From a virus: 64,000 nt of DNA. The position numbers were made by a program, and so were the translations under genes. Under the pieces are notes generated by a model. The model was not told the origin of the DNA. It made no database searches and was given only the letters and a program-made list of their open reading frames with translations. Location of the stretch: positions 124,001-188,000 of IMG/VR virus record IMGVR_UViG_3300042010_000106, one strand, 5' to 3'. The stretch's first letter is position 1, and each line of letters begins with the position of its first letter. Below, piece after piece: positions 14,196-35,346 of the stretch.

Positions 14196-14639
14196 TTACT
14201 TCAGAATCAGGCGCCGATTGGCACCCTTCACAAACGATATGTGAATGTAGTTGTCACGCATCTGCAAAATGTCGAATTCTTCCGACTGCAAATATTCGTA
14301 AATCATTTCGAGGTCATTGGACACGATAGAAACTGCGTGCCCGGTGACGTGTTGTTTTTGCTGGATGTAATCAAACCAGTTTTTATCGCTGCATGTCAGT
14401 TTGTTCTGACGGCACCAATCGAAGAAACCCGGTTTGCTGTATTCGCGTTCCAGTGTAGGCGAGCGATACCAACTGACGATCCGAAAGTTGTAAGCGTTGC
14501 GCAATGGTTCCAGCACAAACTCTGCCATGTCCTCGGCAGCGCGCAGCACATTGCGGGGCGGCGTATTGTCGATTTTGTTTTTAATCGCAACGAGGTCGAA
14601 ACCCACGTCAAGATCGGTATAGTTTGGACTGATTTTCAT
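14196..14639 (-). CDS. Peptidase M15-like protein (endolysin candidate) lacking a zinc ligand
   Basis: 147 residues. The fold signature of phage M15 peptidases is visible: FRIVSWYRSPTLEREY (S-G-Y-R-S-P-x-L-N), QKQHVTGHAVSIVSND (S-x-H-x-x-G-x-A-x-D), EEFDILQMRDNYIHISFVKG and NRR near the end. In active enzymes His and Asp of the second motif and His of the last bind zinc. Here the Asp position is Ser, while both His remain. It is the last gene of a lysis-type cassette; AAGGA precedes the ATG. It may be an altered or inactive peptidase, a virion-associated domain, or use another ligand. Confidence 0.75.
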   Translation of the reverse strand: MKISPNYTDLDVGFDLVAIKNKIDNTPPRNVLRAAEDMAEFVLEPLRNAYNFRIVSWYRSPTLEREYSKPGFFDWCRQNKLTCSDKNWFDYIQQKQHVTGHAVSIVSNDLEMIYEYLQSEEFDILQMRDNYIHISFVKGANRRLILK

Positions 14640-14650
14640 AACGTTTTCCT

Positions 14651-15097
14651 TTACAACGCAAGGCCGATAATGGCAATCGCTTGCCAGAATACTTTTTCAA
14701 TTGCGAACCACGTTTTATCGCGTTCGTGTTCTTGCTGTTCCTTCAGATACAGCGCGTAATTTTCGTTGGCGCGTACCTCCTGTTTCAGCGCAATATCTAC
14801 GACCGTGTTGTGTTGCTGGATCGTTTGATTATGCGCTACCACAAGAAGATTTAAGCCTTCGGTATTTGCTTTCGATTGCCGTACATAATCCGTAAGCTTT
14901 CGCGTGTTATTCAGATCGAGTACGGCAACTTCTTTTCCGTCAACTTGCGCTTGGCTTATCGCTGGTTTGTCCGGCAGGGACGCTTCCAACGTAAGCTTTT
15001 CCAATTTCTGCAATGGCAGTGGCGGTGGTGGATTCCACTGTTGGGACGTTTGACATCCCGGCACCATGAGAATCAACAATAACAGGATTAGCCGCAT
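14651..15097 (-). CDS. Lipoprotein, spanin candidate (u-spanin or o-spanin)
   Basis: 148 residues from the ATG at 15097; the open frame runs further upstream but MRLILLLLILMVPGCQTS is a clear lipoprotein signal with lipobox VPGC, so this start is chosen. A proline run (NPPPPLPLQK) follows, as in many outer-membrane spanins. The middle is helical and polar, and the last about 18 residues (FAIEKVFWQAIAIIGLAL) are hydrophobic. Lipoprotein at one end and a membrane segment at the other is the layout of unimolecular spanins such as T1 gp11, which fuse inner and outer membranes at lysis. If the C-terminal segment is too short to span, it would be an o-spanin. Confidence 0.72.
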   Translation of the reverse strand: MRLILLLLILMVPGCQTSQQWNPPPPLPLQKLEKLTLEASLPDKPAISQAQVDGKEVAVLDLNNTRKLTDYVRQSKANTEGLNLLVVAHNQTIQQHNTVVDIALKQEVRANENYALYLKEQQEHERDKTWFAIEKVFWQAIAIIGLAL

Positions 15098-15443
15098 TTT
15101 CTGTACTCGCTTGTAAGCGTTCCAGCGCGGTGCGTACTGCCAATGGCATTGGTGGTTTACCAATCATGGAATCAGCAGCAATACCGATTGCGAAATAAGT
15201 AATCTTTCCCACACCCGGTTCGATGATCACAGTCGTCAGAAACGTTGCGAACGCACCAGCAAAAACCCAAAAGGTAGATTTAACATCGTCGAGCCAATAC
15301 GACGACAGTTTGATTCCCTCTTTCTTGCATTTCCAAATCCAGTTTACGATCACACCTGCAAGGGTGCAAAAGAAAAAACCGAACGCGTCATCGAGGGGAA
15401 TTTCGATGGCTTTTTCAATCGCTTTTACAAACCATTCCATCAT
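14940..15443 (-). CDS. Holin candidate, two to three transmembrane segments
   Basis: 167 residues. Hydrophobic segments at about 21-38 (GFFFCTLAGVIVNWIW) and 58-92 (TFWVFAGAFATFLTTVII and ITYFAIGIAADSMIG) flank a basic loop (KCKKEGIKLSSYWLDDVK). The C-terminal 60 residues are polar and flexible. Size, membrane topology and position between two other membrane lysis genes and the M15-like gene fit a holin that times inner-membrane permeabilisation. Two ATG codons stand in tandem at 15438-15443. The 3' end overlaps the lipoprotein gene by 158 bases, as spanin and holin genes often do. Confidence 0.65.
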   Translation of the reverse strand: MMEWFVKAIEKAIEIPLDDAFGFFFCTLAGVIVNWIWKCKKEGIKLSSYWLDDVKSTFWVFAGAFATFLTTVIIEPGVGKITYFAIGIAADSMIGKPPMPLAVRTALERLQASTENAANPVIVDSHGAGMSNVPTVESTTATAIAEIGKAYVGSVPAGQTSDKPSAS

Positions 15444-15453
15444 CGCGCACTCA

Positions 15454-15708
15454 CTATTCTTTGTTGTATTCCTCTATCGCTGCGCTTATTGAAGCCGCAT
15501 CCGACTTCGGAACGGGTTTTGTTTTTTCGACGACGGCTACATGGGCCTCTTCGATTTTCTCGTTCTGCTCTGTGTAATCCGGTGGCAACTCTACTTCTGG
15601 TGCTGGCGGTTGTGGCTTTTCTTTAGTCCGACCTACAGCCGCAAAAAGAGTCAGCAAAAAGATTGCTGCGCCCACAATCCACAAACCCCATTTCTTTAGC
15701 GTTTCCAT
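15454..15708 (-). CDS. Small single-pass membrane protein of the lysis region
   Basis: 84 residues from ATG 15708 (GGTGAA upstream); the longer open frame reads as shadow of the neighbouring small gene. METLKKWGLWIVGAAIFLLT gives a basic N-terminus and one transmembrane helix, followed by a proline/glutamate-rich tail (TKEKPQPPAPEVELPPDYTE) and a short helix. N-in/C-out is likely. It could be an accessory holin/antiholin or a small inner-membrane spanin partner for the lipoprotein; the sequence does not decide. Confidence 0.6.
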   Translation of the reverse strand: METLKKWGLWIVGAAIFLLTLFAAVGRTKEKPQPPAPEVELPPDYTEQNEKIEEAHVAVVEKTKPVPKSDAASISAAIEEYNKE

Positions 15709-15712
15709 ATAT

Positions 15713-15889
15713 TCACCGTGATGTGAAAGTGTGTTCCAGACCGCGATTCGAACCAACCTTTTCGCCTTCGTCGTCGATGGTGTCTTGACGGTTAAGCATT
15801 TTGCGTCGATTCAATCGCTGCATTTTCGAAATAACTTTCTTGTTTCTCACGGGTTTTGCATCAATCAAAATAAGCATTGCATTCCCCAT
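15713..15889 (-). CDS. Very small basic hypothetical protein
   Basis: 58 codons between the terminator and the membrane-protein gene. The product is lysine/arginine-rich (KPVRNKKVISKMQRLNRRKM) with an acidic patch (DTIDDEGEKVG). The stop lies four bases before the next ATG. An internal ATG at 15877 with GGGG six bases upstream may be the true start (54 residues). It fits the gap exactly but has no recognised relative, so it is tentative. Confidence 0.45.
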   Translation of the reverse strand: MGNAMLILIDAKPVRNKKVISKMQRLNRRKMLNRQDTIDDEGEKVGSNRGLEHTFTSR

Positions 15890-15930: not shown

Positions 15931-15964
15931 AAAGAAAAAGGGGAACCAAATGGCTCCCCTTAAT
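15931..15964 (-). terminator. Rho-independent terminator after the fibre gene
   Basis: On the minus strand AAGGGGAGCC and GGTTCCCCTT form a 10-position stem with one G-T pair and a four-base loop, followed by TTTTTCTTTT. It separates the structural gene ending at 15981 from the lysis cassette, so lysis genes may have their own promoter or depend on read-through. Confidence 0.85.
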
Positions 15965-15980
15965 CTATACCACTATGTGC

Positions 15981-17111
15981 CTACGTGTTCAGCCAGCTCA
16001 CGCCACCTTTGATTGCCGCAGCAACGCCAAGGGTGATAACCAGTTCATTCACGGTGGTGAATTCAACGTCATCAGGAGTGATTTGTTTGTTGGTTGCAGC
16101 ATCAACGACAATCACGTTCGGCCAGCGATAGCCGAGGTTGTGAGTGATTGTGTGGGTGGTTGCAGAAGCACTGTCGATTGGAAAGAACAGACCAGCAACT
16201 TTCGTGTTCATTTCCGTTTCAGTTGGGTACGTATCCAGCGCAGTAGTCAATGCCGCAGGAGTAACGTAGGTGCCGGAAAGATCGCCAACTTTCAAACCCG
16301 CAGCGGATTTGGTCAGCGTGGCACCGTCCAGTTTAACGGAAACAACATCACCGGCAGTTTCAATACCGTCGCCGGGAGTGATGCCAGAAATGCCGCCGAA
16401 TTCTGCCCAATCAGTACCGTTCCAACGCAGCCACATACCATCAGCACGATCCCAAACGAGGGCGCCGGGGCCTTGTGCAGAAACGTCGTAAGCGAGAACG
16501 GTTGCTTCACCGCCTGCTGTAACTTCTACGATGTCATTTGCATTGCCGACTGTTGGAGTAATACCGCTCAAACCATCAGTCAGAATGTAACGACCTGCAA
16601 CGCCTGCGAAATCAGCTTCGCGACCGAGAACGTCGGCTTGGAAATCCAAACCGGCCAGCGCGTTGTCAATTGCGTTATTCAGTTGGGTAGTGTTTACCAA
16701 ACCGGTAACAGCAGTTGCGATTTCATCAGTTACATCGGTGCTTTGTGCATACGGTGCGAGCGCCGCAGTCAAAGCAGTTGTCAGCACGTACGAACTGAGG
16801 GCGGTTGTCAATTCGCCATCGGTTGTGTAACCGCCCAAAAGGGCAGTCAGTGCGGTGGTTGTGGTGTAATCCGCAAGCGCTGTATCCAGCTCTTCAGGAG
16901 TGACGCCGCCAGCACCAGCAGCGCCGAGGCTAACGGTTGTGGTGCCGTTGTAAAAACGCAGCGTGTCGGTGGTAGTGTTTACCCACAAACGCGGTGCAGT
17001 AAGATCACCGGCAATTGGATCTTCCACCAATTGTTCGATGCGCAAGTTTTTGATTTCGCCAGTCAGGGTAACGTCACCCTTGACTAACAGTGAACCATTA
17101 ATTTCTGCCAT
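15981..17111 (-). CDS. Tail-fibre/virion structural protein
   Basis: 376 residues with fibre-like composition: Thr, Ala, Gly and Val dominate, Cys is absent, and a repetitive stretch (about 75-150) repeats T-T-A-L-T-A-L and Y-T/A motifs (DYTTTTALTALLGGYTTDGE, TALSSYVLTTALTAALAPYA), typical of trimeric shafts. Starts MAEINGSLLVKGDVTLTGEI, like phage appendage proteins; later W-D-R-A-D-G-M-W-L-R-W-N-G-T-D-W is common in fibre tip domains. The C-terminus ends in a compact beta region (HTITHNLGYRWPNVIVVDAA). It lies between a terminator and a four-gene island. Confidence 0.8.
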   Translation of the reverse strand: MAEINGSLLVKGDVTLTGEIKNLRIEQLVEDPIAGDLTAPRLWVNTTTDTLRFYNGTTTVSLGAAGAGGVTPEELDTALADYTTTTALTALLGGYTTDGELTTALSSYVLTTALTAALAPYAQSTDVTDEIATAVTGLVNTTQLNNAIDNALAGLDFQADVLGREADFAGVAGRYILTDGLSGITPTVGNANDIVEVTAGGEATVLAYDVSAQGPGALVWDRADGMWLRWNGTDWAEFGGISGITPGDGIETAGDVVSVKLDGATLTKSAAGLKVGDLSGTYVTPAALTTALDTYPTETEMNTKVAGLFFPIDSASATTHTITHNLGYRWPNVIVVDAATNKQITPDDVEFTTVNELVITLGVAAAIKGGVSWLNT

Positions 17112-17134: not shown

Positions 17135-17923
17135 TCATAGTGCTGGTGGGCACGAAATAACATCAACAATATCAACGTATTCCGTGCAGCGTTTCAGAAG
17201 AGACGCCAGCGGTTCGTCACCTTCGATTACGCCAGCAAAGCTAAGCCTGCTGGTCGAATAGTTCTTTATCAACACGGGGAAAGATCCACATGCGATTGTC
17301 AGGTAATATTTTATGCGTTCTTCACACATAAAAATCCCCGACTGGAAATAGTAATCAATGGTAAAATTGTCGATGTAGACAATCAGTCGATCAGCATTGG
17401 AACGATTTGTCGTGCACTGATTCGGAACGTAGTTGCTTCCTAACAGGCAGTCGATTTCGTATAACTCGTACAAGCACATTTGAAGCATTGAACTTAACCC
17501 GGCGACGATTATCGGGAAGGCTTCAAGGGTGTGCATTCCATTTGTACTTTTAATCATGGCTCTGAAAGCATTGCGCGTGTGCACGTTAACCGTATACCAC
17601 TGGTCAACGAAACCCTCACAAAACAGAGTCGGATAAAGCTCAAATATTTCAAGGTGATATGACTGCACCTTGTCGTCATCAGCTAACACCGCGTCAATTG
17701 TTGCTTCTGTCACGGTGCTATTGTTGAGGAAGGTATACTCGACCCGCTGCGCCCAATTCGTGTAGCTATTGAATAAAAGCAGCAGCGTTTCTCTAGCAAC
17801 CTCGCTGAATTGGTTGCGTTCCATCAACAAATCATTGAGGATAAATGCCTTGTTCCCGTAAAAGAGCGACATCGCTTTTGAACTGACGGAACGGAATCGA
17901 ATATTGTTCGGAACGAATGACAT
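17135..17923 (-). CDS. Hypothetical protein of the 17-19 kb island
   Basis: 262 residues. ATG 17923 is chosen over a TTG four codons earlier because TTGAGG lies six bases in front. Helix-rich, with Cys and Tyr clusters (MLQMCLYELYEIDCLLGSNY; YYFQSGIFMCEERIKYYLTI). No signal peptide or clear membrane span; no family recognised. It sits among envelope proteins and between two fibre genes, so it may be part of an inserted set rather than a structural protein. Confidence 0.6.
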   Translation of the reverse strand: MSFVPNNIRFRSVSSKAMSLFYGNKAFILNDLLMERNQFSEVARETLLLLFNSYTNWAQRVEYTFLNNSTVTEATIDAVLADDDKVQSYHLEIFELYPTLFCEGFVDQWYTVNVHTRNAFRAMIKSTNGMHTLEAFPIIVAGLSSMLQMCLYELYEIDCLLGSNYVPNQCTTNRSNADRLIVYIDNFTIDYYFQSGIFMCEERIKYYLTIACGSFPVLIKNYSTSRLSFAGVIEGDEPLASLLKRCTEYVDIVDVISCPPAL

Positions 17924-17931
17924 GAGTAACC

Positions 17932-18417
17932 TCAAACGCCTCTCGGCGCTTCACCACGGTGCATGTTGAGTCCTAGAATGATACCCGACACTTGGCTTTG
18001 TTTCTCACTGACTTCTGACAATGTGCGCAAAAGCCGCTCAGTGTTTCTGTCAATGGTGTTCATACAGTTCTGAAGTTCACGAACTGTCGTCGAATCCAAA
18101 TGGCGATTACCGTTTAGTGCCCCCGACATTGAATTTAGCAAACTGCGCAATTCTTCTAGGGCAGGAATACTGACGGGGCGTTCAACAATTGCTAAGATTT
18201 CGCTCAGCATTTGGCTCATTTTTTTAAGGTCATCAGTATGTGTTGTGCGAAGCTCCTTTATCTCTTCATCCTTATCCACAATCGTTGCCAGCGCTTCCTT
18301 GAGCTGCGCAGCCTGTGGAATTGCAAACCACCAGATAACAGCGCCGAAGGCTAGCGCCAGCATCATTGCAATAATCGTGGGGATAGGACTGGAGAATATT
18401 GTGTCAATCATCCCCAT
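17932..18417 (-). CDS. Inner-membrane protein with long coiled coil
   Basis: 161 residues. One N-terminal transmembrane helix (PTIIAMMLALAFGAVIWWFA) followed by a long charged helical region with heptads (LKEALATIVDKDEEIKELRT, LKKMSQMLSEILAIVE, STTVRELQNCMNTIDRNTER). This is the layout of inner-membrane spanins (Rz type), but it stands 3 kb from the lysis cassette; a role in envelope interaction or superinfection exclusion is equally possible. GAGG for the next gene lies at its end. Confidence 0.62.
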   Translation of the reverse strand: MGMIDTIFSSPIPTIIAMMLALAFGAVIWWFAIPQAAQLKEALATIVDKDEEIKELRTTHTDDLKKMSQMLSEILAIVERPVSIPALEELRSLLNSMSGALNGNRHLDSTTVRELQNCMNTIDRNTERLLRTLSEVSEKQSQVSGIILGLNMHRGEAPRGV

Positions 18418-18712
18418 ATTTGCACCTATCGTTTGTTGGAGTGAACTGGTATGTTTTTACGCCATCGTTATTGGTAACGACGATCTTTGTTATCAGGGGT
18501 TTCTGAATTGCGCACGCAAGTCCAGCACCCGGCAGATTTTTGCAAACGGCTTCTACACAATCTACGAATTCTGTCACAACTGGTTTAGGCCCAGCAGAAT
18601 CAAATTCCGTGACCGCCCACGATCCAAACATAATCGCTAGCAGAAGTAGCAGCAGTGCCCTACTCCCTTTTGTTTGTAATGACACGGTAGAAAGTCCCCG
18701 ACAGTTGGTCAT
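18404..18712 (-). CDS. Small membrane-anchored, exported protein
   Basis: 102 residues. Hydrophobic segment RALLLLLLAIMFGSWAVTEF near the N-terminus, then a polar domain with four Cys (VDCVEAVCKNLPGAGLACAI; later DRC) that could form two disulfides in the periplasm. The start is uncertain: ATG 18712 overlaps the previous gene by 53 bases and a GTG a few codons later is possible. Partner of the neighbouring membrane genes by position only. Confidence 0.55.
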   Translation of the reverse strand: MTNCRGLSTVSLQTKGSRALLLLLLAIMFGSWAVTEFDSAGPKPVVTEFVDCVEAVCKNLPGAGLACAIQKPLITKIVVTNNDGVKTYQFTPTNDRCKYGDD

Positions 18713-19421
18713 ATATATCCATACTACCCAACTTTTTCAGTCGCTCTAACGAGGCGCAGATGCTTGTAGATTTTCCACCAGTCAAAACGATTATTGCATC
18801 GTCCGGCGTCGGCCCGATGGCTAATGCTGTGCGGAAATCTTTGTAGCAGATTCCCACGTCCACATGCGTTCTGTTAGCTTCAACCACAATTTCTTCGATG
18901 GCAGGGTAAGAGAGTTTGGCATTCCAATTATCACGTAAGTTAAATACATTGATGATTAGGAAGCCCTTATCTTTTCGTTTCAATTTGATCAGTGCTAAGC
19001 GCAAGTCGTGTTCTGTTTTCATTTCGAACACTTCTGTAACTGTCGTCTGTTCTTTGATCGCTGCCAATCGCTCGGTTTCCAATTCCCCCGTGCCTTGCAA
19101 CACGTACACTTTATCTTTTATGACTTTGTTCAGCGTGAACTGAGACACAATCGAAAAGCGCTTACTGGATTCAATTGGGTAGAGCTGCCCAAGCACCGTA
19201 ACTTCCTTGTATTTCTCTGTTTGGGCATATTGATTTAGGATGTGGGTTACGTCCTTTGGCCGTGCGCGTCGATCCAACATTACCACTTGACTGCTAAGCT
19301 CTTCGGCGAATGTTGTGCCGTAAAGATCAGTAATCACGTGGCTTTGCACAACCAACGTTTCCGCACTGGCAATGCCTATCAGGCTATACAAGTAAATTAA
19401 CGAGGCTAGGATTAATCGCAT
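18660..19421 (-). CDS. Periplasmic protein with signal peptide, possible type-1 binding-protein fold
   Basis: 253 residues. Signal peptide MRLILASLIYLYSLIGIASA with cleavage after ASA. The rest alternates strands and helices (KYKEVTVLGQLYPIE, KGFLIINVFNLRDNWNAKLS, YPAIEEIVVEANRTHVDVGI) and ends GPTPDDAIIVLTGGKSTSIC. The order resembles periplasmic binding proteins of the kind found in front of histidine kinases, but similarity is only in general fold. A secreted phage protein with such a domain is uncommon and could act on the infected cell's envelope. Confidence 0.6.
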   Translation of the reverse strand: MRLILASLIYLYSLIGIASAETLVVQSHVITDLYGTTFAEELSSQVVMLDRRARPKDVTHILNQYAQTEKYKEVTVLGQLYPIESSKRFSIVSQFTLNKVIKDKVYVLQGTGELETERLAAIKEQTTVTEVFEMKTEHDLRLALIKLKRKDKGFLIINVFNLRDNWNAKLSYPAIEEIVVEANRTHVDVGICYKDFRTALAIGPTPDDAIIVLTGGKSTSICASLERLKKLGSMDIYDQLSGTFYRVITNKRE

Positions 19422-19439: not shown

Positions 19440-22019
19440 CTACGGCGTTTGGTCAATAACACCTATGCTAAAGTTTTTAACAGTCCAATCACCGTACCAG
19501 AATACGTTTCCGGTTGAACCACCAATGCGACGACCAATATAGAACGGTGAAGAAACATCGTTCAAAAGGTTTTCGGTGTACGGAGATTCGCCAATTTTAG
19601 TTCCGTTTACAAAGCAGGCCAATACACCAGCGGTTCGGATAAACTTCACCAAATACTGAGTATTGAATGCCAATGCAAACGGGAAAACAACGAACGTTCC
19701 AGCAGTGCCATCATGGGATGCAGAAATCACGAACTGTTGCGCTGTGTGGCTGTATTGGATTTCGTAGTTGACGAGTTTTCCCGGTGCTGCCCACGTGCCC
19801 CAATAAACCATTGGAGTAATTGCGCTGCCAGAAACGGTTGTCGCCGTTTGCACACTGAAATCAACTTCACACACAAAGTCTTTCGAACCCGGACACAATT
19901 CAGGCGCGTTTGGCATTGTCAAATACGCGTTGAATGGCATGCGCCAAGATCCAGCAGAAGCAGAACCGCCAGTTGCTGTAATACCTTTTGCAACCACACC
20001 TTCTTTGATCAAAGATGTAGGAATTGCTTTAACTTTCGGCGGTGCAGCGAGTGGTTTAATCACGCCGTTATACATCGCACGTTTTGCAATTCGAATCCAT
20101 TTGATCGACAGCGGGTTAGTGCTGGCGGTGTAGTTCCAGTTGTTGCGCATTGGAACCGTATCGGTGTTATCCATGAGTGGGAACGTGTGAGCTTGTGTGC
20201 CCACTAATACACCATCCATATAAGCATTCAAAACATTGTTAACTTTCTCAACAACTAGGTGAACGTCTCTGTTTAATGGAACCAGATTCGAACCCAAAGA
20301 CAGAGATTGCAAAGCCGTGCCGCCACTGGCTTGCGATGCGGTATAAATAATCATCCCGCCACCGCTGCTGTACCAGAGCAACCAACTGTTTGGATTTCCG
20401 GGATCTATGTACTGACCCAACACGCAGTTTTCCGCTGTGCCGGGATACGCAGGCAAACGGAATAACAATTCAATTGTGAAATCGCCAGCACCGAAATACT
20501 TACATGGCGCACTGAATCGCGAAGTTGTTGCTGCCGTGGTTTGCAAACGACCATTCGCAACCGAAGTTGGGCCAGCCATAACGATTTGCCGACCGCCCAC
20601 AAAATCCATTTCGTTTAGCAGCGAATTGTTTCGGAATGCAGCTTGGAAAACAATGTCGTCACGTACAGCAGGTTCGTAGTATTGAGGCGTCAACGCAGGC
20701 AATGTAGCCAACGGTTCAAACGCATCCGTGTACGCAGATTTACCGCGACAAATACGCATGCCCCAACGACGACCAATTGCACCGTTACGAATGTTCAAAA
20801 ATTCCGTACTTTTGAACGTCGCGGTGTTGTTTGCCGCCGAATAAATCTGTGCACCGTTGAGGTAAATTTTCAATACACCACTAACACGACACACCGCGAT
20901 ATGGTGATCATTGTTCAGAGTCAAACCAGCGGCGCTTACGTTGATTCGTCCGGTGCTAGAATTCGAACCGTCTGCGTTGACGATTACAAGCACGTTGCCA
21001 ATTTGCGCACCCACAAAGAACGCGAAGTTTGTAGAGCCAGAAGGTGCATACATCGACAACAATGCAGCCGCATCAGGAATTGCAGACATATTCAACCAAC
21101 CTTCGATACTGAAATCTTCGGAGGCTGAAAAGTAAACCGGTGTGGCGCGGTCTAATGGATATCCTGTTGCAGAAGTGTTCACCAATTTGTTGCTGGAAAC
21201 GGTGGCGTTCGTCAGCAACACTGCTGCTTCGGTTACGTCTTCAATCGCTTGGTTATTTTGGAAACTGAATTGCGACCAAACATATGGCGTCATGTCTTCA
21301 GAGGCTGGAATCTCCATTACATTTGCACGCAGTTTATCCGGATTGCTTTGCGGGTACAGCCGCTGGTACGCCCAATCAAATGCACCGTCATTCGCCACAA
21401 TAAAGTTGCCAACGTTGCGATGGTAGTAAAGCTTCGGCATTCCTGTACGCGTAAGGCCGTTGTATTGAACGCTGCCGTTTTCGAAAAAGAATGCGAATTT
21501 GTCACCCGTTGCAGCGATTACAAATGCTGCTGAATATGCAAAGACGTTTTGTGCTACAGTCGATCCGATAAAGGAACCGGAAAGATAACGCGATTTGTTG
21601 TAGACGATGAACGTGCTTGAGCCAATTGCAATCTTGTCATTTGCTGTGACAGCCACACTGAAATTTCGGGTCAGTGTTTGCACCACGCTAATCTGTTGTG
21701 CAGTCACGCTGACGATAACAATTGTGCCATTGCTCGCTACGTCGAACGCGCCAACAATGTCGATTGGGGTTTGTACACCACCGGTCAGGCGATACGTTTT
21801 ATCTACTGTTTGTGCAGCGATTACGGTTCCGTCATTCGACATTTTCAATGCGAGAACGTCAGCCAGCGCATACGTGGTTGGCTGAAGAGTTAGCGTATTG
21901 TTTGCTTCGTCTTTTGCGTAGGTTGAAACCACGCCATTCTGATAGACAGCGACGTGGTTTTTCCCGTGAGCAAGCAAAACGTTTGGCAGCGCGACTGTGT
22001 TTAAAAGTGCCATGCTCAT
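19440..22019 (-). CDS. Tail fibre/adhesin with three LamG/ConA-like domains
   Basis: 859 residues. The first 240 are beta-rich with repeated 'GT-V/I-x-x-V' strands, possibly propeller-like. Three concanavalin/laminin-G-like domains follow at about 250-435, 455-650 and 695-857. Each shows the family pattern: D/E-F-x-I/C-E-x-x-F/L near the start (DFSIEGWLNMS; DFTIELLFRLP; DFVCEVDFSVQ), then V-x-K/R-x-x-x-V-L-x-x-Y/F-x-N/D-G (VCRVSGVLKIYLNG; EKVNNVLNAYMDG; IRTAGVLACFVNG). Such domains bind carbohydrates, suggesting receptor recognition on surface polysaccharide. MALLNTVALPN two codons in is an alternative start. Confidence 0.85.
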   Translation of the reverse strand: MSMALLNTVALPNVLLAHGKNHVAVYQNGVVSTYAKDEANNTLTLQPTTYALADVLALKMSNDGTVIAAQTVDKTYRLTGGVQTPIDIVGAFDVASNGTIVIVSVTAQQISVVQTLTRNFSVAVTANDKIAIGSSTFIVYNKSRYLSGSFIGSTVAQNVFAYSAAFVIAATGDKFAFFFENGSVQYNGLTRTGMPKLYYHRNVGNFIVANDGAFDWAYQRLYPQSNPDKLRANVMEIPASEDMTPYVWSQFSFQNNQAIEDVTEAAVLLTNATVSSNKLVNTSATGYPLDRATPVYFSASEDFSIEGWLNMSAIPDAAALLSMYAPSGSTNFAFFVGAQIGNVLVIVNADGSNSSTGRINVSAAGLTLNNDHHIAVCRVSGVLKIYLNGAQIYSAANNTATFKSTEFLNIRNGAIGRRWGMRICRGKSAYTDAFEPLATLPALTPQYYEPAVRDDIVFQAAFRNNSLLNEMDFVGGRQIVMAGPTSVANGRLQTTAATTSRFSAPCKYFGAGDFTIELLFRLPAYPGTAENCVLGQYIDPGNPNSWLLWYSSGGGMIIYTASQASGGTALQSLSLGSNLVPLNRDVHLVVEKVNNVLNAYMDGVLVGTQAHTFPLMDNTDTVPMRNNWNYTASTNPLSIKWIRIAKRAMYNGVIKPLAAPPKVKAIPTSLIKEGVVAKGITATGGSASAGSWRMPFNAYLTMPNAPELCPGSKDFVCEVDFSVQTATTVSGSAITPMVYWGTWAAPGKLVNYEIQYSHTAQQFVISASHDGTAGTFVVFPFALAFNTQYLVKFIRTAGVLACFVNGTKIGESPYTENLLNDVSSPFYIGRRIGGSTGNVFWYGDWTVKNFSIGVIDQTP

Positions 22020-25884: not shown

Positions 25885-25917
25885 AATGGAAAAGGGGGAA
25901 TAAATCCCCCTTCCAAG
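25885..25917 (-). terminator. Rho-independent terminator between structural genes
   Basis: On the minus strand AAGGGGGA and TCCCCCTT pair around a five-base loop (TTTAT), with a T-rich run after it. It separates the paralogue pair (25938-28170) from the next structural genes. Confidence 0.8.
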
Positions 25918-33330: not shown

Positions 33331-35346
33331 TTAGAACGTACCGTTTGCAGTACCCGGAGGTGTAATGGTTACGCCACGCGGATTCGACAGCCGAATTTGT
33401 ACCGTTTTCTGTGGCGGATTTGGAACGTCTGTGCCGATGATCGTTACGGGGATTTGTTTCTCAGATTCGCCCGCTTCAAACATCATTGTGCCGCTCGCTG
33501 TTTCGTAATCTGGTTCGCCGAAATCGAACACCATATCGGTGAATGCAGAACTTGCTTGCGAGTAAGTGAAGAAGCCGAAATTGCAGCTTGTGTTAAACAC
33601 TGCCAAATCAGGATCGGTACTCACGTTGCAAGTAAGCGGCGTTGCGTCCAGAACATCAGAACCGAACGGCGTTGCAAACGCACGCAGAACAGGGCCGTCA
33701 CGATCAATTTTCACCGTGGAATATGCGCCCGACCATGCGTGACCAGTTGCACCGATATCAACTTCAGAAATCACTTTGATTACGACATTGTTTCTTACGT
33801 AAGAAAGTTGGAAGTTTTTCGATGTCGAACCAGCAGCCATACCACCTTGGTTACGGTTTGCAACGATCATGTGGTTTGCGCCAGCATCACGAACAAATGC
33901 CAACACCAGACCCATTGCATCGTCGTCCGCATCGGTAGAACTGAGTTTCGCTTGTGCCGAGAAGAAGTTGAAAGCATTCGGACTCAACAACGAAACGTAA
34001 TTACCGCTGTTTTTAATCGACTCAATATGATCGCCAGTCAGCACCATATTGTTCGCGTCATCGGCGGCAGGAATTTGCATACCCGGCAGATAAAGCGCTG
34101 CACCAGAAGCATGCGACCAGTTCTGATAATTGTCGTAGGTATTTGGAATCGGAATTCCTGAACCTTTCGCATCATTCGAAACGGTTTCCCAATCAACCAA
34201 ACATGTGCGTTTTGCAGCAGTGTTCAACACAAGATCATAGAACATGACGTTGGTTGTTGCAGGATCATCAGGACGCACAGCAGTTGTATCGTAAACCTGT
34301 ACAGCGGAGAACGGTTCGGTATCCAGCAAAACTACGCGCCAGTTGAAATCTACATCCGCAACCGCTTCACCAAATGTCACAGTAAACGAACCGGTTGTTG
34401 TGCCTTGATCGGTGCTAGTTGCAAGCACGTACGATTGTGCGCCGGAATATTTGTTGAAACTGATATACACGCGTGGAAGCCGTGCAGTTTCACCGTCAAA
34501 TTCATAGGTAATTGTCAGCGCTTGAACAGGCGCAACCGATTTGAATTCGCCGTAAACTTCCAACGTTGCATCATTCGTTTCGAGCGTGTGATATTCACCT
34601 ACACGCGGATCAGCATTTTGTCGCGGGTTATTTGTGAACAATGCAGAAACACCGGGCGGGCCTTGAATACCTTGACCGGGTGCGCCTGTTTCGCCTTGCG
34701 GGCCTTGTTGACCTTGCAAACCGCGTTCGCCTTGTGGGCCAGTCGGGCCTATTGGGCCATTCAAACCAGTTTCACCGATTTGACCTTGTGGGCCTGTTGC
34801 GCCTGTCAAACCTTGCAAACCTTGTGGGCCGGTTGGGCCTTGTTGTCCGGGTGTTCCTTGTGGGCCTAATTGACCTTGTGGGCCAGTCGGGCCGGTTGGG
34901 CCAATGCTACCGGGCAAGCCTTGTGCGCCTTGCGGGCCTGTAGGGCCAACGGGGCCACGCGGGCCGATACCACCATAACCACCGGCAGGGCCAGCGGGGC
35001 CGACATCACCTTTAGGGCCAATACATCCCATCGGGCCGTCGCGTCCGTCTTTGCCGTTGCGACCATTTAAACCTTGCGCACCTTCAGGGCCAGTCGGGCC
35101 AGTTGCACCAACACCAATATTATTTACTGTTGGAAAACCTTCGGAACGAATTACAGTTCCGTCAGTATTTGTAATTGTGAAAACGCCAGTTTCTTTATCG
35201 TAAACCGCAGTTTTTACGCCACCTTGTGCCGCCGTTTCGTCGGTACTCGGTTCAAATTCAACGCCCGTATCTTTCAGCACTGCGCCCGGTACAGAGCGAG
35301 ACGTGCTAATCATCGACGGTGGTACTTTTGTTAATCCGCCAGCCAT
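33331..35346 (-). CDS. Collagen-like fibre protein with Calx-beta-like C-terminus
   Basis: 671 residues. N-terminal anchor [20 protein letters not shown], then [20 protein letters not shown], then about 50 Gly-X-Y triplets (residues about 79-232) with one conserved Cys ([10 protein letters not shown]). The rest is a beta-rich head, closing with a Calx-beta-like segment ([35 protein letters not shown]-x-x-K-x-I-x-V, then T-V-x-x-x-L-S-N-P). Collagen-like phage proteins form trimeric triple helices. It shares its anchor with three other genes in the window. Confidence 0.88.

Follow-up and report, generated by a model that had tools for sequence, protein, structure and literature searches.

Our analysis highlights a conserved block of four genes at positions 17135-19421 (minus strand) of the window, the 64,000-nucleotide stretch of viral DNA examined here, which belongs to a 312-kb virus record related to the Pseudomonas jumbo phages HRDY3, Lu11 and PaBG. 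The envelope of the infected cell is the probable site of action of the block's products, and we tentatively propose, at a confidence we consider low, that together they represent an envelope-spanning sensor or guard, perhaps directed against superinfection. The four genes are kept in 11 of 12 loci from named relatives and one of them, ORF1, in 65 of 68 related records, yet they carry either no assigned function or a misleading name ('ABC transporter'). Our searches linked none of the four to a homologue whose function is known, and the literature that we searched held no account of a multi-gene block running from periplasm to cytoplasm in jumbo-phage superinfection. If the block does guard or read the envelope, it would open superinfection biology in these phages.

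The four tandem ORFs are transcribed in the order ORF4 (18660-19421, 253 aa), ORF3 (18404-18712, 102 aa), ORF2 (17932-18417, 161 aa) and ORF1 (17135-17923, 262 aa). ORF4 and ORF3 overlap by 53 bp and ORF3 and ORF2 by 14 bp, while a gap of 8 bp separates ORF2 from ORF1 when the latter begins at the ATG at 17923. This start, rather than the TTG at 17935 of the program-listed frame (17135-17935), is indicated by the ORF1 starts of relatives, and the presence of homologues of each ORF in distant phages argues that all four are real genes. Upstream, 18 bp from ORF4, lies a fiber-type gene (19440-22019, minus) whose position corresponds to fiber or hypothetical genes in HRDY3 and Lu11; downstream, 23 bp from ORF1, lies a gene for a virion structural (tail) protein (15981-17111, minus; phrog_16122, E 9.9e-63), probably the last of the block's transcription unit. 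The initial annotation placed the block between two fiber genes, which is correct on the 19440 side, whereas 15981-17111 is better named a virion structural or tail component in view of its phrog_16122 match and of PaBG, where the protein encoded just beyond the block, at a computed 57,162 Da, has the mass of virion band 6, gp257 (57,162.97). Elsewhere in the window, 33331-35346 encodes a fiber-type protein with collagen triple-helix repeats (Pfam E 4.5e-20).

The simplest reading of this arrangement is that fibers, block and virion protein constitute a single transcription unit. A terminator-like hairpin of 10 pairs with a T-rich tail (15938-15961, minus) lies just 3' of the virion gene, ahead of the lysis genes, likely marking the end of the unit, and a second (25889-25914, minus) lies upstream of the fiber genes as a possible start boundary. 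The scan returned 21 such sites against 16.3 (sd 4.4) expected, the 15938-15961 hairpin being notable through its position and stem length alone, and it found no strong terminator-like hairpin flanking the four-gene block itself. Two weak promoter-like sites occur upstream of the block (19536-19622, minus), in a region with 5 such sites against 15.4 expected by chance. The location of the block inside the fiber operon, with no strong terminator-like site ahead of it, suggests late expression. Beyond the 15938-15961 hairpin, the lysis region (14196-15880) encodes an endolysin-like protein (phrog_894, E 6.7e-9), a lipoprotein (phrog_23384) and a multi-TM holin-like protein, and a TM protein in this region (15457-15756) has a weak match to phrog_4980, 'superinfection exclusion' (E 0.0025).

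The block was initially likened to a moron, and comparison of its junctions with those of related phages, which had been proposed as a check, argues against a recent, optional insert. All four genes are present in identical order and place in the scanned loci of 11 of the 12 named relatives, with identity to the window down to ~12-25%, and are flanked on one side by fiber or HNH-annotated genes and on the other by a virion protein that is of the same kind throughout; the sole exception is Alcaligenes Afa-NA1 (78 kb), which has ORF1 only. A tblastn search with ORF1 (E ≤ 0.01) matched 71 phage records (Erwinia 48, Dickeya 8, Vibrio 6, Pseudomonas 5 and four singles), and the window's tail-sheath protein matched 68 (Erwinia 48, Dickeya 8, Pseudomonas 5, the same four singles, Agrobacterium 2 and Sinorhizobium 1). 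The figure of 65 ORF1-bearing records among these 68 is a comparison of organism-group counts, the matches listed being 60 of 71 for ORF1, 60 of 68 for the sheath and 40 of 72 for a repeat of the ORF1 search. The three sheath-bearing exceptions are phages of 470-490 kb, and both ORF1 and ORF4 are absent from the two distant phages of this size that were searched whole. In IMG/VR, 35 of 47 loci found via ORF1 hold all four genes, several of the 35 being named phages already counted; these loci came from an alignment scan, single-sequence scans having returned nothing. The block thus looks old and vertically inherited in the PaBG/Lu11-type ('Lupandier', hairy myovirus) jumbo phages. ORF3 is readable yet unannotated in the public records of HRDY3 (L001:9704-9970), Lu11 (L002:9686-9973) and Y3 (L012:4202-4486). 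The records of Salmonella Sen-NF (L010, 108 kb) and Alcaligenes Afa-NA1 (L011, 78 kb) resemble incomplete jumbo-group members or ones with unusual annotation, with contiguous tiled CDS in which ORF4 is short or missing.

The composition of the block does set it apart from its neighbors. The earlier impression that CTA, ATA and CGA are uncommon codons in this part of the window is borne out by counts: across the four genes CTA accounts for 11 of 88 Leu codons, ATA for 11 of 59 Ile codons and CGA for 7 of 39 Arg codons. In a reference of 37 curated window genes the shares of these three among their synonyms are 2.7, 5.5 and 8.7%. No equal-length reference segment scored lower than its block gene (0 of 106, 221, 408 and 113 for ORF1, ORF2, ORF3 and ORF4), a null that is dominated by long virion genes. 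Set against 22 small window genes, ORF1 and ORF3 scored below all 22, while ORF2 and ORF4 each scored below 19 and are ordinary-low. The GC content of the block, 0.447-0.476 against ~0.48, is lower as well. These same offsets appear in all seven relatives compared, where the codon scores of all four genes fall below the neighbors' median and GC is below that of the neighbors in 27 of 28 block genes and equal in one; with the window included, block codons are poorly adapted relative to neighboring virion-type genes in eight of eight genomes.

Because the odd codons and lower GC are common to all seven relatives, we consider them an inherited trait rather than evidence of a recent arrival. A bias brought in by import would fade or vary between hosts, whereas a shared signal fits long-standing low expression, which is the simplest explanation of the codon bias; the block is probably weakly expressed. 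A recent moron acquisition, complete with control signals of its own, is therefore highly improbable. It would account for the GC and codon scores, a composition unlike that of the neighbors being a moron-like feature, but the block is fixed at one place in the group rather than variably present among close relatives, the relatives carry the same composition offset, and the block itself has no strong terminator-like hairpin at its flanks.

The constant association with fiber genes and a virion protein in this jumbo group raises an alternative in which the products are low-copy, tail-linked proteins that, for example, enter the envelope by ejection at infection or aid fiber assembly. Also in its favor, the authors of the PaBG study mention further virion-associated products beyond their Table 1 (PMC7412058). 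The PaBG block corresponds to gp253-gp256 (deposited tags PaBG_00253 to 00256), however, and none of these is among the 14 virion bands listed for that phage, a test at the level of Coomassie staining only (PMC7412058); the listed band closest in mass to the ORF2 homologue differs from it by 421 Da. Codons poorly adapted relative to those of neighboring virion-type genes in all eight genomes also argue against this alternative, as does the export of ORF4: in the relatives read, it either has a signal peptide as annotated or regains one from an earlier start. We regard the alternative as improbable. The block products are probably not structural. The initial annotation held that presence in all relatives, fiber-like codon usage and products in the virion would count against its interpretation; the block is indeed present in nearly all of the loci compared, but its codons are unlike those of fibers and its products are absent from the listed PaBG bands. 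What stands of that interpretation is a membrane and periplasmic block that is not fiber-like in its products or codons and for which we found no virion evidence, and what falls is its recent and optional acquisition.

ORF4 begins with a signal peptide that ends in an A-x-A site by direct reading, and its homologues also have signal peptides; in several Erwinia records (L004:8440-9468 and others) the annotated start is too late, and an in-frame upstream ATG restores the signal. The AlphaFold2 model (pLDDT 88.9) has the two lobes of a type I periplasmic-binding fold of the TrpX/CD0873 kind. In the VIA comparison the best three of 999 aligned chains are 3lft (Z 14.1), 6hni (13.3) and 3lkv (13.2), over 213-215 residues, while LacI-type rows reach Z 10.9 and lower, and Foldseek gives E 2e-4 to LacI/SBP folds; at the sequence level the match is to phrog_31505 (E 3.4e-7). 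The exported binding-fold protein first suspected here is thus upheld, with the fold as a prediction. The three best chains, presumably members of PF04392, are ABC_sub_bind-type proteins of S. pneumoniae (3lft), C. difficile (CD0873, 6hni) and V. cholerae (3lkv). ORF4 is like them in its export signal and type I fold, but shares only 10-11% identity with them, lacks a Pfam match and is ~60 residues shorter in its mature form.

These likenesses raise the possibility of nutrient capture, in which ORF4 would be a phage-borne substrate-binding protein that feeds a host ABC transporter. In its favor, the best structural matches are ligand-binding proteins (3lft as an L-Trp complex, and 6hni), and the PHROGs label of the ORF1 family is 'ABC transporter'. 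Yet none of 25 ORF4 homologues matches PF04392 (ABC_sub_bind) at E ≤ 1, and the 312-kb genome has no match at E ≤ 10, whereas eight of 14 control genomes do match. The shortened mature protein and the presence of only four invariant residues among the 25 homologues also count against it, no partner permease or ATPase gene was found at the locus, where the other neighbors are fiber and virion genes, and the proposal leaves the other three genes unaccounted for. Together with the ORF1 results below, this makes nutrient capture a rather improbable function.

The initial description of ORF1 as a soluble helical protein agrees with its AlphaFold2 model (pLDDT 93.6), a bundle of six helices with a small alpha/beta C-terminal part, and with its lack of a TM segment. 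Structure comparison of the model gave no credible solved-fold match; the best, a catenin-like fold (Z 8.2, Foldseek E 0.75), was rejected as within the chance range for helical bundles. Sequence comparison likewise gave no solved-structure match worth naming for ORF1, ORF3 or ORF4. In BFVD, ORF1 has only four relatives at E ≤ 0.001, all from phages, and among bacterial and archaeal genome contigs a pattern (A1) matched eight times without yielding a relative, a weak test since it uses a single short pattern. ORF1 is a clear member of phrog_19088 (E 4.6e-83), but the name of that family, 'ABC transporter', finds no support in an ABC-type Pfam match, a solved fold or a TM segment. We rejected ORF1 as an ABC ATPase, since none of 13 homologues matches an ABC family in Pfam (E ≤ 0.1), and direct reading found no Walker A motif, which also counts against nutrient capture; ORF1-ORF3 have no ABC transporter family match in Pfam or NCBIfam. 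Database names such as 'ABC transporter' and 'moron' should not be taken as evidence of function.

The two membrane proteins have complementary features. In ORF2 (phrog_28931, E 1.5e-22), a TM segment at residues 15-33 is followed by a helical tail, in keeping with the TM plus coiled-coil protein first described. Its homologues show an excess of K/R C-terminal of the TM in 29 of 31 cases and an N-terminal excess in none, and the coil should therefore face the cytoplasm, where ORF1 must be. ORF3, which was taken for an exported Cys-rich protein with a TM, has one TM and a small domain predicted to be periplasmic, and this description is borne out by its homologues, all 13 of which carry four cysteines past the TM, invariant in the ten of ten aligned. 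Counting K/R does not by itself settle its orientation (5 v 4 of 13), and the N-in reading draws on net charge and the cysteines. Four such cysteines are what a disulfide-held periplasmic head would be expected to have.

Outside the jumbo group, ORF1 occurs without ORF3 or ORF4 in the other 12 IMG/VR loci, six of these records having been searched whole and the remainder over the fetched locus alone, and in two Vibrio phages searched whole. A TM plus coiled-coil gene adjoins ORF1, before or after it, in 11 of these 12 loci and in both Vibrio phages; in the twelfth the ORF1 region ends at the contig end. The surroundings of this pair in Vibrio and other phages are quite different from those of the jumbo-group locus. 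Alignments of the ORF2-type partners (A8 v A9) match with an hhalign probability of 98.5 over 47 columns around the TM, and A9 matches A10 at 61.8 and A7 at 36.1, scores that coiled coils inflate; homology of the partners between phage groups is likely, though the link is weak. The occurrence of the pair without ORF3 or ORF4 makes ORF1-ORF2 look like an ancient core and ORF3-ORF4 a jumbo-phage addition, and ORF1, a phage family for which no solved relative was found, now has a likely partner and cellular place. A response-regulator receiver domain (Pfam E 1.1e-20) directly follows ORF1 at L060:6782-7150 and might hint at signaling, and a RimK-type ATP-grasp protein with a putative zinc-protease domain lies upstream of ORF1 at L052:4495-5982; similar-looking neighbors recur in L047, L058 and L062, the L052 protein alone having been scanned.

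A bolder extension, which we think unlikely, is that the block is a new type of trans-envelope signaling or gating apparatus. Its ancient core, common to several unrelated phage groups, would be the phage-only ORF1 protein docked on an N-out/C-in ORF2, to which jumbo phages would have added a captured and reshaped ORF4 and a disulfide-held ORF3 adaptor that read the periplasm for an incoming phage or envelope stress.

In the guard reading that we tentatively favor, the four products would assemble into one complex spanning the inner membrane of the infected host. ORF4 would be free in the periplasm with its binding-protein fold, ORF3 would be anchored in the membrane with its disulfide-held head in the periplasm, ORF2 would be a membrane anchor whose coiled coil lies on the cytoplasmic side, and ORF1 would be a cytoplasmic helical effector or scaffold docked on ORF2. 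The complex would sense or block a periplasmic event, such as the arrival of a second phage's tail or DNA, and relay it to or through the membrane; it may act in superinfection exclusion. Gene order, conservation, topology signals, predicted folds and codon bias are observed here, whereas the mutual contact of the four products, their time of expression and their function are inferred. This reading is favored by the complementary topologies of ORF2 (K/R in 29 of 31), ORF3 (cysteines in 13 of 13) and ORF4 (a signal peptide and VIA Z 14.1 over 215 residues), and also by the conserved order and place of the block, the TM/coiled-coil gene beside ORF1 in distant loci, the inherited poorly adapted codons and the absence of the products from the listed PaBG bands. 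Against it, the occurrence of ORF1-ORF2 without ORF3-ORF4 in Vibrio and other phages indicates that the periplasmic half is not needed everywhere; the differing surroundings of the pair in those phages, and the failure to find a homologue of known function, count against it as well.

Two systems of phage T4 offer points of comparison. In the holin/antiholin set T, RI and RIII, periplasmic, membrane and cytoplasmic parts delay lysis after superinfection, and the four-gene block might control lysis timing in the same way. The distribution over compartments is the same, RI acting in the periplasm and RIII being described as cytoplasmic (PMC8385771, PMC11413866). In the window, HRDY3 and Lu11, lysis genes lie within ~1.5-2.5 kb downstream of the block, ORF2 matches Rz-like spanins in PHROGs very weakly (E 0.22 and 0.79), and one distant locus (L048:4565-6723) has the order endolysin (phrog_315, E 1.6e-52), holin (phrog_3427, E 1.8e-6), ORF2-like, ORF1-like; a scan with the L048 protein returned that contig alone. 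In the window, however, a terminator-like hairpin stands between the block and the lysis genes, and the stretches shown for PaBG, the Erwinia phages and NCTB carry no annotated lysis gene. ORF2 and T4 holin T have opposite orientations. The likeness to RI, T and RIII is one of analogy only, with no sequence link found and no PHROG antiholin match at E up to 1, by which homology was judged, and in most relatives the block is tied to fiber genes, not lysis genes. We consider a role in lysis timing unlikely, placing it second to the guard reading and ahead of a virion or assembly role and then nutrient capture. The other comparison is the T4 exclusion protein Spackle (gp61.3), described as an early secreted protein that inhibits the gp5 lysozyme (PMC7650644, PMC7677548). 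Its early expression counts against the guard reading, as the block sits in an apparently late fiber unit. ORF3 and ORF4 would resemble Spackle as small phage proteins working in the periplasm, and they would differ in that Spackle is free and secreted, whereas ORF3 looks membrane-anchored and part of a four-gene set.
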